Source of the DNA: Psychromonas sp. B3M02
GTDB lineage: Bacteria; Pseudomonadota; Gammaproteobacteria; Enterobacterales; Psychromonadaceae
Direction: 5' to 3'
DNA: 61,162 bases
NCBI RefSeq assembly: GCF_003318165.1
Contig: NZ_QOCB01000131.1
Span: 1-61,162 of the forward strand
How positions within the stretch are numbered: the stretch's first letter is position 1; each line of letters begins with the position of its first letter. Of this stretch, positions 1,505 to 45,122 are shown one piece after another. The notes beneath the pieces were generated by a model. The model saw nothing but the letters and a program-made list of their open reading frames with translations. It searched no databases and was not told where the DNA came from. The position numbers and the translations under genes were made by a program.

Positions 1505-3091
1505 TTAATGTTCACGTGTTTTACGGAATTTAACGTCTGGGTAACGTTCCATTGCTAGGTTTAAGTTAACCATAGTCGGCGCTACGTAAGTTAAGTTATT
1601 ACTACCATCTAATGCTAGGTTATCGTAAGCTTTTTTCTCAAACTCAGCCATTTTAATTGGATCTTCACAATCAACCCAAAGTGCTGTTGCTACGCTGATA
1701 CCTTCATAGATAGCATCTACCTTGTATTCAGATTTTAAACGTTGTACAACGACTTCAAACTGTAGCACACCTACCGCGCCTACAATCAGATCATTACTGC
1801 GTAATGGACGGAATACCTGAACAGCACCCTCTTCTGATAATTGCATTAGACCTTTTAACAGTTGCTTTTGTTTTAATGGATCTTTTAAACGAATACGACG
1901 GAACATTTCTGGTGCAAAGTTAGGAATCCCCGTAAATTTTAGATCTTCACCAACGGTAAATGTATCACCAATTTGAATAGTACCGTGATTATGTAAACCA
2001 ATAATATCACCAGAGAATGATTCGTCAGACGCAGTTCGGTCACCCGCCATGAAAGTTACCGCATCAGAAATGCTGACCATTTTACCTGTACGTACATGGT
2101 GCATTTTCATGCCTTTTTCATATTTACCTGAACAGATACGCATAAAGGCAATACGGTCACGATGTTTTGGATCCATGTTCGCTTGAATTTTAAAAACAAA
2201 ACCAGAAAACACTTCTTCAGTCGGTTCAACTACACGTTGTACTGTTGCTCTTGGTAATGGCTTTGGAGCCCACTCCACTAAGCCATCAAGTACATGGTCA
2301 ACACCAAAGTTACCTAATGCTGTACCGAAGTAAACTGGCGTTAACTCGCCAGCCAAAAACATCTCTTTATCGAACTCATTAGATGCACCTACCACTAACT
2401 CCATCTCATCACGTAAATCATCAGCATGGTTTGGTAAGGCTTTATCTAATTCAGGGTTATCTAAGCCTTTAATAATACGCACTTCTTGGATGGTATGACC
2501 TTGACCTGATTCATATAAAATCACTTCATCGCGTAGAATATGGTAAACACCTTTGAACTCTTTACCCATACCAATTGGCCAAGTAATAGGAGCACAGGCG
2601 ATATTCAGAACTTCTTCAACTTCATCCATCAATTCGATTGGGTCACGAGTGTCACGGTCACATTTGTTCATGAAAGTAATGATTGGTGTATCACGCAGAC
2701 GCGTTACTTCCATTAATTTAATGGTACGTTGCTCAACACCTTTTGCCGCATCAATAACCATCAAACAAGAATCAACAGCAGTTAAAGTACGGTAAGTATC
2801 TTCCGAGAAATCTTCATGTCCAGGTGTATCCAGTAAGTTTACTAGACCATCATTGTATGGGAATTGCATCACCGAAGTAGTGATCGAGATACCACGGTCT
2901 TTTTCCATCTCCATCCAGTCAGATTTTGCATGTTGACCAGATTTTTTACCCTTTACTGTACCCGCTTTTTGTAACGCGTTTCCGAATAATAATACTTTCT
3001 CAGTAATGGTTGTTTTACCCGCATCAGGGTGAGAGATGATTGCGAATGTACGTCTAGAGTTGACTGCCTCTAGAAATTTAGCGTCTGCCAT
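1505..3091 (-). CDS. prfC: Peptide chain release factor 3 (RF3)
   Basis: A translational GTPase that removes RF1/RF2 from the ribosome after termination. The GTPase motifs are clear: G1 SHPDAGKTT, the switch region [11 protein letters not shown]3 DTPGHEDF and G4 NKCD. EF-G-like domains 2 and 3 follow. The start is placed at [16 protein letters not shown], twelve residues before RRTF as in E. coli RF3, with AGAGA upstream; this gives 528 aa against 529 in E. coli. A longer frame would add 13 basic residues with no family support. It is upstream of yjjV on the same strand with a 72-bp gap, so the two may be cotranscribed. Confidence 0.97.
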
Positions 3092-42079: not shown

Positions 42080-43138
42080 TTACGCGTTACCTTTAACTTT
42101 TAACTGTTGCTCAGCGGCAAAGTTTAACATTCTATCTAAAGATACAAGTGCACCTTTAGCAACATTAGGGTCAACATCTATCTCATGCCCTGATGCATCG
42201 TTTAATGAGTCGTATATCGCTTTAAGGCCATTCATTGCCATCCAAGGACAATGAGCACAGCTACGACAAGTTGCACCGTTACCAGCGGTTGGTGCCGCCA
42301 TCATCTCTTTGTCTGGACACGCTTGTTGCATCTTGTAAAAGATACCAGTATCAGTCGCGACAATTAACTTTTTGTTTGGTAATGTTTGTGCCGCTTTAAT
42401 TAATTGGCTAGTAGAACCAACAGCATCAGCTAATTTAACAACACTCTCTGGTGACTCTGGATGAACCAGTATAGCAGCATCAGGGTAGATTGCTTTCATA
42501 TCGCGCAATGCACTCGCTTTAAACTCATCATGCACGATACAGTCGCCTTGCCACATGATCATATCTGCTTTTGTTTCACGCTCAATGTAGCTACCTAAGT
42601 GGCGGTCAGGTCCCCAAATGATTTTTTTACCTTCGCTATCTAAATGCTCAACGATCTCTAACGCAATGCTCGATGTCACGACCCAATCTGCGCGTGCTTT
42701 AACGGCTGCCGAAGTATTTGCGTAAACCACAACGGCACGTTCTGGATGTTCATCACAAAAGGCAGAAAACTCTTCCACAGGACAACCCACGTCTAAAGAA
42801 CAAGTTGCAGCTAGCTCGGGCATTAATACGGTTTTGTGTGGTGTTAATATTTTTGCTGTTTCACCCATAAAGCGAACACCAGCAATGATTAATATTTTTG
42901 CTTTATGATCTCGACCAAAGCGAGCCATCTCTAAAGAGTCTGCAACATAACCACCAGTTTCTTCAGCTAAAGCTTGGATTTCAGGATCGGTATAATAATG
43001 AGCGACAAGTACCGCATCTTTTTCAACAAGTAGTTTTTTGATTTTAGCTTTGTAATCAATCTTTTCCTGTGAAGTTAATTCAACAGGTTTACCAGGAAAT
43101 GGATAATCAGATCCAACAAGCGGGGAAAATTGGCTCAT
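42080..43138 (-). CDS. nadA: Quinolinate synthase A
   Basis: It condenses iminoaspartate with dihydroxyacetone phosphate to quinolinate in NAD biosynthesis, using a 4Fe-4S cluster. The 352-aa protein contains the three cluster cysteines expected in the family, in [25 protein letters not shown] and [17 protein letters not shown], and the substrate motif [12 protein letters not shown]. It lies just downstream of the tRNA-Lys array, as nadA does in E. coli after the lysT cluster. Confidence 0.98.
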
Positions 43139-43245: not shown

Positions 43246-43321
43246 TGGTGGGCCGTGAAGGATTTGAACCTTCGACAAATGGATTAAAAGTCCACTGCTC
43301 TACCAACTGAGCTAACGGCCC
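43246..43321 (-). tRNA. tRNA-Lys (UUU), copy 1
   Basis: 76 nt including encoded CCA. Acceptor GGGCCGT/ACGGCCC, D arm GCTC/GAGC, anticodon loop CTTTTAA (anticodon TTT), T arm GAAGG-TTCAAAT-CCTTC; every arm pairs. Confidence 0.98.
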
Positions 43322-43385
43322 ATATAGTTTTATATGGATATGGTTTTGTTTAATGAAATTACTTTTAGATTAAAAGTACTTCAAT

Positions 43386-43411
43386 GGCTCTACCAACTGA
43401 GCTAACGGCCC
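43386..43411 (-). pseudogene. Truncated tRNA-Lys 5' unit A
   Basis: 26 nt identical to the tRNA 5' strand and D arm. The anticodon arm, T arm and CCA are absent. Confidence 0.85.
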
Positions 43412-43475
43412 ATATAGTTTTATATGGATATGGTTTTGTTTAATGAAGTCGCTTTTAAATTAAAAGTGCTTCAAT

Positions 43476-43493
43476 GGCTCTACCAACTGAGCT
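43476..43493 (-). pseudogene. Truncated tRNA-Lys D-arm unit B
   Basis: Only the D-arm sequence AGCTCAGTTGGTAGAGCC remains, directly after the CCA end of copy 2 in the direction of transcription. Confidence 0.75.
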
Positions 43494-43503
43494 TATATAA
43501 AAG

Positions 43504-43579
43504 TGGTGGGCCGTGAAGGATTTGAACCTTCGACAAATGGATTAAAAGTCCACTGCTCTACCAACTGAGCTAACGGCCC
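43504..43579 (-). tRNA. tRNA-Lys (UUU), copy 2
   Basis: Identical in sequence to copy 1, 76 nt with CCA and anticodon TTT. Confidence 0.98.
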
Positions 43580-43606
43580 ATATAGTTTTATATGGTTTGT
43601 TTTTAA

Positions 43607-43621
43607 CTCTACAACTGAGCT
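43607..43621 (-). pseudogene. Truncated tRNA-Lys D-arm unit C
   Basis: The shortest remnant: AGCTCAGTTGTAGAG, with one base lost in the D loop. Confidence 0.6.
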
Positions 43622-43632
43622 TTATATAAAAT

Positions 43633-43708
43633 TGGTGGGCCGTGAAGGATTTGAACCTTCGACAAATGGATTAAAAGTCCACTGCTCTACCAACTGAGCT
43701 AACGGCCC
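43633..43708 (-). tRNA. tRNA-Lys (UUU), copy 3
   Basis: Identical to copy 1, 76 nt with CCA and anticodon TTT. Confidence 0.98.
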
Positions 43709-43772
43709 ATATAGTTTTATATGGTTATGGTTTTGTTTAATGAAGTTACTTTTAAATTAAAAGTGCTTCAAT

Positions 43773-43798
43773 GGCTCTACCAACTGAGCTAGCGGCCC
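43773..43798 (-). pseudogene. Truncated tRNA-Lys 5' unit D
   Basis: Acceptor 5' strand and D arm only, with one substitution (GGGCCGC in place of GGGCCGT). Confidence 0.85.
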
Positions 43799-43862
43799 AT
43801 ATAACTTTATATGGTTTTGGTGTTGTTTGATGAAGTCGCTTTTAAATTAAAAGTACTTCAAT

Positions 43863-43880
43863 GGCTCTAACAACTGAGCT
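43863..43880 (-). pseudogene. Truncated tRNA-Lys D-arm unit E
   Basis: D-arm remnant AGCTCAGTTGTTAGAGCC with a D-loop change, directly after the CCA of copy 4 in the direction of transcription. Confidence 0.75.
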
Positions 43881-43890
43881 TATATAAAAG

Positions 43891-43966
43891 TGGTGGGCCG
43901 TGAAGGATTTGAACCTTCGACAAATGGATTAAAAGTCCACTGCTCTACCAACTGAGCTAACGGCCC
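43891..43966 (-). tRNA. tRNA-Lys (UUU), copy 4
   Basis: Identical to copy 1, 76 nt with CCA and anticodon TTT. It is the promoter-proximal intact copy. Confidence 0.98.
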
Positions 43967-44030
43967 ATATAGTTTTATATGGTTATGGTTTTGTTTAATG
44001 AAGTCGCTTTTAAATTAAAAGTGCTTCAAG

Positions 44031-44056
44031 GGCTCTACCAACTGAGCTAACGGCCC
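44031..44056 (-). pseudogene. Truncated tRNA-Lys 5' unit F
   Basis: Acceptor 5' strand and D arm intact; the rest of the tRNA is absent. Confidence 0.85.
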
Positions 44057-44120
44057 ATATAGTTTTATATGGTTATGGTTTTGTTTAATGAAGTTACTTT
44101 TAAATTAAAAGTGCTTCAAT

Positions 44121-44146
44121 GGCTCTACCAACTGAGCTAACGGCCC
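44121..44146 (-). pseudogene. Truncated tRNA-Lys 5' unit G
   Basis: Same structure as unit F and exactly 90 bp from it. Confidence 0.85.
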
Positions 44147-44210
44147 ATATAGTTTTATATGGTTATGGTTTTGTTTAATGAAGTGACTTTTAAATTAAAA
44201 GTGCTTCAAT

Positions 44211-44228
44211 GGCTCTACCAAATGAGCT
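44211..44228 (-). pseudogene. Truncated tRNA-Lys D-arm unit H
   Basis: D-arm remnant with one change (AGCTCATTTGG). It is 90 bp from unit G and nearest the promoter. Confidence 0.75.
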
Positions 44229-44281
44229 TTAGTTTAAGCTAGAACATGATTTGCATCACGTGTTGCTCTCAACTGCGGCGT

Positions 44282-44309
44282 ATAATATACAAATATTTTC
44301 AGAGCGCAA
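44282..44309 (-). promoter_or_regulatory. Promoter of the tRNA-Lys array with GC-rich discriminator
   Basis: On the minus strand, -35 TTGCGC (44304-44309), a 16-bp spacer and -10 TATTAT (44282-44287), then the GC-rich discriminator ACGCCGCAG, typical of stringently controlled stable-RNA promoters. Units H, G and F would be transcribed before the first intact tRNA. Confidence 0.65.
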
Positions 44310-44360: not shown

Positions 44361-44398
44361 TTTAAGCACAATTAATCTAGATAAAATATGTGCTTAAA
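44361..44398 (-). terminator. Hairpin at the cpoB stop codon
   Basis: TTTAAGCACA and TGTGCTTAAA are exact 10-bp complements around an 18-nt loop, one arm covering the cpoB stop. There is no T-run, so read-through into the tRNA array is possible. Confidence 0.4.
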
Positions 44399-45122
44399 GT
44401 GCCTTTAAACGTTTAGCAGCTAAGTTGGCTGCAGATGAACTTGGATACTCAGTGACCGTCTTCTGATAGAAAGATTTCGCAGAATCAATCGAACCAGCAT
44501 ATTCATCAATGATACCAATTTTAAATAGTGCATCAGCGCGTTTATTAGAATCAGGATATTTTTCCGTGACCACTAAGAATGCAACTTTAGCTTCATCTCG
44601 TTTTTTTTCTTTGTAGAGGAGTTGCCCTAACCAGTATTGCGCGTTCGGAACATAACTTGATTCAGGGTAATCAATAACAAAAGCTTCGAAGGCAGTAATT
44701 GCCTGAAGGTATTGCTTATCATTAAGCACTAAATCAACAGCGGCTTGATAAGCAGCTTTGTCTGTACCAGGAGCAGCTGGTGTTGCAGATACAGCAACAG
44801 GTTGTGAAGTTTGCTGACGTTCATCTAACATTTGATAGAGATTACGTTGACGCTCTTCAATTTGCTCTAGGTCATTGGAAAATACTTCCATTGAACCTTT
44901 AATTTGATTTATCTCTTGGCCTAATTGATCTAACTGAGTTTGAAAACGAATTTGCATTTTATTGCGTATCGTCATTACTCTAGTTAGCTCATCCATACGT
45001 TTTAGTAATTCAGCATTACTAGCCGTACTGACTGTAGCATCTGAAACAGGTGCCGCAGCATAGCTTGGAAAAGAGAAAAAAGCGGTCAAAAGCATGACCG
45101 CTGATAGATTACGTTTTTTCAT
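44394..45122 (-). CDS. cpoB: Cell division coordinator CpoB (YbgF)
   Basis: A periplasmic protein of 242 aa that coordinates peptidoglycan synthesis by PBP1B with Tol-driven outer-membrane constriction. It has a signal peptide (cleavage near SYAAAP), a coiled-coil trimerisation region (about residues 35-95) and C-terminal TPR repeats (AFVIDYPESSYVPNAQYWLG, FLVVTEKYPDSNKRADALF, FYQKTVTEYPSSSAANLA). It is the last protein gene of ybgC-tolQRAB-pal-cpoB, followed by tRNA-Lys genes as in E. coli. Confidence 0.96.
   Translation of the reverse strand: MKKRNLSAVMLLTAFFSFPSYAAAPVSDATVSTASNAELLKRMDELTRVMTIRNKMQIRFQTQLDQLGQEINQIKGSMEVFSNDLEQIEERQRNLYQMLDERQQTSQPVAVSATPAAPGTDKAAYQAAVDLVLNDKQYLQAITAFEAFVIDYPESSYVPNAQYWLGQLLYKEKKRDEAKVAFLVVTEKYPDSNKRADALFKIGIIDEYAGSIDSAKSFYQKTVTEYPSSSAANLAAKRLKAL

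Follow-up and report, generated by a model that had tools for sequence, protein, structure and literature searches.

Tandem half-tRNA units with an anticodon-loop hairpin in the tRNA-Lys and tRNA-Asn arrays of Psychromonas: candidate retained elements of the tRNA precursor

The window analysed here, a stretch of 61,162 nucleotides from Psychromonas sp. B3M02 (contig NZ_QOCB01000131.1), contains a tRNA array on the minus strand between two minus-strand genes which, from the gene order, we take to be cpoB (44394-45122) and nadA (42080-43138); the NadA protein shares 98% identity with its counterpart in Psychromonas sp. 14N.309. A preliminary description of this DNA had counted four identical tRNA-Lys(UUU) genes and eight truncated units. 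Both counts are borne out: the four genes are recovered by ARAGORN and by Rfam, whose tRNA model scores each at 77.9 bits, and the eight partial units, also on the minus strand, measure exactly 90 nt in seven cases and 53 nt in the eighth. As complete cloverleaves, only the four intact genes and no partial unit are called in the window by ARAGORN and by Rfam at its gathering score. Read along the minus strand, the array begins with three 90-nt units ahead of the first intact tRNA, starting at 44236, 44146 and 44056, as had been reported. Unit 1, the leader (44147-44236), carries a D-arm with one mismatch, an 8-nt linker and a second hairpin (hairpin 2), without an acceptor strand; unit 2 (44057-44146) consists of a 5' acceptor strand, D-arm, linker, hairpin 2 and an AU-rich stretch; and unit 3 (43967-44056), in which the 5' acceptor strand is also present, adjoins the first tRNA (43891-43966). 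Unit 4 (43799-43888; D-arm with one mismatch, no acceptor strand) and unit 5 (43709-43798; 5' acceptor strand with one change) precede the second tRNA (43633-43708). The third (43504-43579) follows the short, 53-nt unit 6 (43580-43632), which has one D-arm base deleted, lacks hairpin 2 and resembles the short units of relatives. Unit 7 (43412-43501; D-arm without acceptor strand) and unit 8 (43322-43411; 5' acceptor strand present) lead to the fourth tRNA (43246-43321), the final element ahead of nadA. The 90-bp spacing noticed earlier recurs in the steps 43888/43798 and 43501/43411. Two earlier statements need correction: the acceptor strand is kept not in most but in half of the units (those starting at 44146, 44056, 43798 and 43411), and the units do not keep only the D-arm, since all seven 90-nt units hold a fixed second part made of 8 nt, an anticodon-loop copy and its reverse complement.

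Ahead of unit 1 lies a promoter-like stretch on the minus strand, read by eye as TTGCGC-N16-TATTAT-ACGCCGC (44275-44309), in which a -35-like TTGCGC (44304-44309), a 16-nt spacer and a -10 element TATTAT (44282-44287) are followed by a GC-rich discriminator. The promoter proposed in the preliminary description is retained as a candidate: comparable stretches are present in the array leaders of relatives, but this one is absent from the output of a consensus promoter scan.

The full plan of a unit is an optional 5' acceptor strand, the D-arm, 8 nt, hairpin 2 and an AU-rich stretch that runs to the next element. In Lys units the D-arm is AGCTCAGTTGGTAGAGC or a close variant, and the piece common to unit and tRNA, the 5' part, measures 17-25 nt. 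Hairpin 2 is AU-rich and of the type CACTTTTAAT-TTAAAAGTG; its 5' arm copies the anticodon loop of tRNA-Lys (CACUUUUAA) and its 3' arm is complementary, such that ACTTTTAAT, the anticodon loop plus its neighbours, is followed by its own reverse complement. When the hairpin motif alone was searched for, with no D-arm required, 55 places were found in the retrieved Lys arrays, five of which were set aside (leader matches of G009, G016 and G023, a decayed repeat of G013, and one G017 unit with a D-arm interrupted by Ns). A D-arm with 0-4 mismatches, exact in 23 cases, is present at all 50 usable places, separated from the hairpin by 8 nt in 49 and by 6 nt in one; in shuffled controls the best D-arm match peaks at 9 mismatches and never has fewer than 5. 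Short units account for 13 of the 69 Lys units counted in 13 genomes, a count that leaves out the window's 53-nt unit with its deleted D-arm base. Twelve of these 13 are wholly without hairpin 2, and in all 12 the D-arm C25 is changed to T, in four of them together with G10 to A.

A second array of the same genome, with tRNA-Asn genes on contig C103, contains units of equal plan, in the order TCCTCTTT, D-arm, linker, CACTGTTAAT (from the Asn anticodon loop) and a pairing 3' arm; the loop copy in these units is CACUGUUAA. Pattern searches of the B3M02 genome (nine loci of one search were inspected) found units confined to the Lys and Asn arrays. Among the 23 genomes read, D-arm-type Lys units occur in at least 13 (G000, G003, G004, G006, G009, G011, G012, G014-G017, G021 and G023) and Asn units in at least 15, both being lower bounds because contig ends cut some stretches. 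For G008, G010 and G019, the Lys and Asn stretches that were read showed no D-arm-type unit. With at most one mismatch allowed, a pattern for the joint plan had matches in 13 of the 24 Psychromonas genomes versus one of 370 other genomes of the order sample, in a search by pattern and not by covariance model that diverged analogues outside the genus could escape. The sole match in another genus, in genome G154 (82% complete), is likely an assembly chimera, transfer being the possible alternative: at 2738-3000 of locus L251 (contig C52) a hybrid-looking tRNA-Lys is followed by Psychromonas-type units, and no orphan D-arm is present on the other contig or in 7 of 8 sister genomes read. Of 80 nadA loci, 79 lie outside Psychromonas; 45 of these 79 have tRNA-Lys or tRNA-Val genes, 33 of them at least two, and the only two orphan D-arms found there both come from tRNAs cut by N or by a contig end. 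In a cpoB+nadA tree built from the proteins of 20 genomes, where the root is drawn only and four rows belong to no group, a single change suffices for the Lys label (support 74/93; 98% of bootstrap trees), which is compatible with a single origin of the Lys units. Three further Asn-bearing rows fall outside the Lys-label group, and the wider spread of the Asn units suggests that they are the older of the two.

The units have a marked position relative to the genes they copy. Eleven of the 13 Lys arrays with units were scored (those of G003 and G004 were left out as broken, and the window's short unit is uncounted): 38 of their 43 intact tRNA-Lys genes have a unit upstream, a unit precedes the first tRNA in all 11 arrays, and in none does one follow within 115 nt of the last tRNA. 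In the Asn arrays of 13 of the 15 unit-bearing genomes, a unit stands upstream of 32 of 46 tRNAs and before the first tRNA in 11 of 13; seven matches past the last Asn gene are, as read from the listed matches, interrupted pseudogenes beyond the terminator.

We hypothesize, tentatively and at slightly less than an even chance, that the units are selectively kept, tRNA-derived elements of a polycistronic pre-tRNA, which arose by fold-back copying and most likely act in cis in its maturation. According to this proposal, the 5' half of a tRNA would have been duplicated and the 3' half swapped for a copy of the anticodon region made by fold-back (template switching), in the tRNA-Asn array first; the Lys version would have appeared later, in the ancestor of one clade, and been multiplied by unequal recombination. 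The promoter-like stretch before unit 1, if used, would place the units in the precursor. The least certain step is the action in cis, in which two self-contained hairpins would frame the AU-rich stretch before each tRNA and an endonuclease could cut this stretch, releasing a two-hairpin RNA. RNase E is reported to be able to enter tRNA precursors where these are unpaired close to its sites (PMC3985628), and the copied 3' piece of the E. coli repeat RrB has been suggested to serve RNase E (PMC8144298); by analogy, we extend these ideas to the D-arm.

The chief rival explanation combines concerted evolution with the renewal of hairpins by template switching: the units would be neutral debris, left as 5' pieces by tandem duplication, homogenised by recombination and repeatedly supplied with new hairpins at the DNA level, in which case homogenisation and hairpin renewal would account for conservation and covariation without any function. 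We consider this explanation unlikely but serious. The suggestion of the preliminary description that the units are traces of unequal recombination holds in part, as unit number differs among genomes and the units of one genome resemble each other more than those of different genomes do (Lys 0.887 vs 0.788; Asn 0.837 vs 0.636), from which it appears that tandem recombination shapes the arrays; on the other hand, D-arm and linker persist across lineages, the Asn array repeats the plan, and Lys units stand ahead of tRNAs and not behind the last one. The other suggestion made there, D-arm RNAs with an effect on tRNA-Lys maturation, may likewise hold in part. A debris origin would also agree with the acceptor strand, D-arm and upstream flank that are common to the tRNA and four of the eight window units, with the longer, decaying pseudo-tRNA-Lys spacers of deep species (G001, G005, G013 and G022, that of G013 being among the matches listed), with partial tRNAs at other tRNA loci of the B3M02 genome, and with one Asn unit of G018 in which the 3' arm is the exact reverse complement of CTGTTAATCC of tRNA-Asn.

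The pattern of conservation is harder to reconcile with debris. Among the Lys-unit lineages, identity at the third codon positions of pal, cpoB and nadA is 0.49-0.61 (a range that leaves out G004, with few codons), apart from close pairs at 0.81-0.91, and outside those pairs we judge these positions to be close to saturation. Unconserved spacers in relatives had been named beforehand as the sign of plain debris; the opposite is seen, with D-arm and linker persisting at this divergence. The 12 full-length first (leader) units, compared in 61 genome pairs, have D-arms 0.908 identical and third positions 0.556 identical, amid unrelated flanks of 0.350 on the left and 0.501 and 0.493 in the right parts. 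Among the first units with the most divergent hairpins, six have identical D-arms, and the two changes of a seventh, in G011, bring the identity to 0.961. A stretch of 17 nt, the length of the D-arm, is judged too short for efficient homologous conversion, which likewise speaks against homogenisation as the cause. For genome pairs below 0.65 third-position identity, the segments of Lys units reach 0.890 (D-arm), 0.380 (acceptor strand) and 0.523 (spacer), and those of Asn units 0.882 (acceptor strand), 0.842 (D-arm), 0.461 (loop plus 3' arm) and 0.712 (last 14 nt), the D-arm and hairpin segment values being inflated because units were gathered at no more than 4-6 D-arm mismatches and with a hairpin filter, which also inflates the identities of the hairpin 5' arm (0.967 and 0.984). 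The conservation of the Asn acceptor strand and last 14 nt, and the low value of the Asn loop plus 3' arm, count against the proposal. Linker letters that are missing from the tRNA, and so speak against debris, are 0.749 identical in Lys (44 canonical units; third positions 0.553) and 0.861 in Asn units (40 canonical units; third positions 0.569). D-arm variants unlike the tRNA (AGTTC, GGTTC and TGCTCAGAT) persist in arrays beside intact tRNAs, again contrary to the debris explanation, and so is the distribution of D-loop changes, 35 of 57 of which fall at positions 18 and 19 and 11 at 14, with none at 20 or 21. In tRNA, G18 and G19 touch the T-loop; since the changes concentrate at these contacts and the units have no T-loop, the D-arm looks kept for its own sake. 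A half-tRNA fragment that is kept across distantly related species suggests a working RNA part and not debris, and the units are conserved beyond what plain debris would lead one to expect, their functional role being a proposal.

Tests of RNA structure covered the D-stem and hairpin 2. The D-stem keeps all four pairs in 62 of the 65 Lys units and in 47 of the 57 Asn units (the Asn rows include two that were later dropped as non-units). Of the stem pairs altered in distinct variants, 20 of 23 in Lys and 12 of 20 in Asn still pair, the latter not clearly above half, the expectation for transitions. Hairpin 2 folds better than dinucleotide shuffles, with a median z of -3.1 in Lys (33/44 at p <=0.05) and of -2.2 in Asn units (33/51 at p <=0.05). 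In first units the hairpin-2 sequences differ widely among genomes, yet all 12 long ones fold as a hairpin at this place; the short first unit of G004 is without hairpin 2. Covariation over D-stem and hairpin 2 is 0.169 in Asn units (33 of 54 distinct sequences served as input) against 0.099 +/- 0.011 in shuffles, none of 500 of which scored as high, and five of the nine pairs of Asn hairpin 2 are altered on both sides. In Lys units covariation is weak (0.106 vs 0.094, with 7 of 500 shuffles as high, and 3 both-side changes vs 2.6 expected), and RNAalifold, applied to the Lys and Asn alignments, proposed the D-stem only and no hairpin 2. Template switching is described as able to create hairpins and perhaps to make compensatory changes (PMC8794818), a point in favour of debris; because it can both make and mend hairpins, covariation alone is no proof of selection. 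We also considered whether the native spacers protect the fold of the tRNA, for which folding predictions gave little support. With native vs shuffled spacers, the Lys cloverleaf scored 0.954 vs 0.962 at 37 C (native above the shuffle mean in 13/26) and 0.946 vs 0.957 at 10 C (17/26), with no gain, and the Asn cloverleaf 0.861 vs 0.781 at 37 C (19/24) and 0.782 vs 0.737 at 10 C (15/24), a slight gain.

Instead of acting within the precursor, the units could be excised as half-tRNA mimics of 60-90 nt which titrate a tRNA-binding protein (a synthetase, a modification enzyme or a ribonuclease) or a small RNA, in a manner like that of the 3' external transcribed spacer (3'ETS) of E. coli leuZ. In both arrays the D-arm and the anticodon-loop copy follow the cognate tRNA, as such a mimic would, and there are precedents in the leuZ 3'ETS sponge (PMC5222698), in the RNAs of Actinobacillus pleuropneumoniae assigned to the RtT family, which lie upstream of tRNA-Asn and tRNA-Lys genes and gave Northern signals (PMC4986893), and in the E. 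coli repeats RrA, RrB and RrF, which are reported to interact with Hfq and CsrA (PMC8144298). However, the folds predicted for the units place the anticodon-loop copy in paired positions inside the hairpin, hairpin 2 is wholly missing from 12 of the 13 short units, and the confinement of the B3M02 units to the two arrays also tells against action in trans, which we regard as distinctly improbable. We would give still less credence to the specific idea that the Psychromonas half-tRNA RNAs, each joining a D-arm to an anti-anticodon hairpin that fits the tRNA beside it, control the maturation or availability of exactly these two AAN-decoding tRNAs; such RNAs would stand ahead of the majority of tRNA-Lys genes and of many tRNA-Asn genes.

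Plain tRNA pseudogenes are ruled out for the 13 Lys-unit genomes because a hairpin of uniform plan takes the place of the 3' half, and integrase attachment copies are judged unlikely, since such copies usually derive from the 3' end of a tRNA. That a repetitive locus was misassembled, as the N runs or contig-end breaks of several arrays and the apparently chimeric contig of G154 might suggest, is highly implausible given the agreement across many separate assemblies and the presence of units in the two-contig genome G016 (Lys and Asn) and the one-contig genome G005 (Asn).

As candidate retained elements of the tRNA precursor, the units can be compared with several known systems. The tRNA-linked repeats (TLRs) of E. 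coli, which include rtT of tyrT and RrA, RrB and RrF, occur one to five per locus, and all 22 are described as containing 18-19 bp copied from the 3' end of the gene that precedes them; their function was described in 2021 as previously not known, and an early phenotype claim for rtT was retracted (PMC8144298). TLRs and Psychromonas units both sit in tRNA operons (TLRs also in rRNA operons) and share a piece identical to the neighbouring gene, the Psychromonas units lying, to judge from gene positions, between or before tRNA genes of the same strand. However, TLRs copy the 3' end and stand downstream of the copied gene, whereas the Psychromonas units copy the 5' D-arm part, add an anticodon-loop hairpin and stand upstream, as seen from the Lys units before the first (11/11) and after the last tRNA (0/11). 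As two defining TLR features fail, we regard the units as a 5'-type variant and not as TLR members; by analogy, they may be viewed as 5'-type mirror images of the E. coli repeats. The Rfam covariance model of RtT gave no match in the window, at gathering score or at E values up to 5. The RNAs Arrc20 and Arrc21 of A. pleuropneumoniae precede a tRNA-Asn and a tRNA-Lys gene, much as the units do here, and were assigned to RtT by their authors (PMC4986893), an RNA family with no match in the window; the likeness noted is one of location. The leuZ 3'ETS, a spacer cut from a tRNA precursor and put to regulatory use (PMC5222698), is a 3' spacer, in contrast to the 5' tRNA copies described here, whose function is a proposal. 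Prokaryotic tRNA gene fragments are likewise partial, non-canonical tRNA sequences, and those of archaea are tied to integrating elements or CRISPR-Cas activity (PMC9897764), in contrast to the Psychromonas units, which are tandem, lie within operons and share one plan in many species. The bacterial Y RNA-like YrlA model matched stretches of unit plus tRNA weakly, at 20.3 and 19.3 bits, far below its gathering score of 69 bits. A literature search covering titles and the starts of abstracts met no description of 5'-type units or of such a regulatory class; older work on repetitive tRNA operons reportedly exists for Photobacterium.

Since the 5'-type copies are conserved and polarised in two arrays, their presence and absence among the 24 genomes can be compared with tRNA maturation. 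They are also a likely example of a hairpin that fold-back copying made from an anticodon loop and that was afterwards retained.

Other altered tRNA copies were observed at further loci. Past the last tRNA-Phe gene on contig C104 of B3M02 (locus L172, ~1045-1410), four tandem repeats ~102 bp apart form a TLR-like counterpart of the 3' type; each has a hairpin resembling a terminator and repeats 15 nt from the 3' end of tRNA-Phe. Past the Asn terminator, interrupted or altered copies of tRNA-Asn are found at ~262-407 of L173 and in L209, L210, L212, L213, L214 and L215; in G016 they are 173-bp tandem copies with terminators. Altered copies of tRNA-Met are present at ~1205-1484 of L166, where a pair ~194 bp apart forms a repeat, and at ~845-934 of L169, while ~290-390 of L175 contains an altered tRNA-Pro copy and a 3' piece, with a terminator-like hairpin near each.
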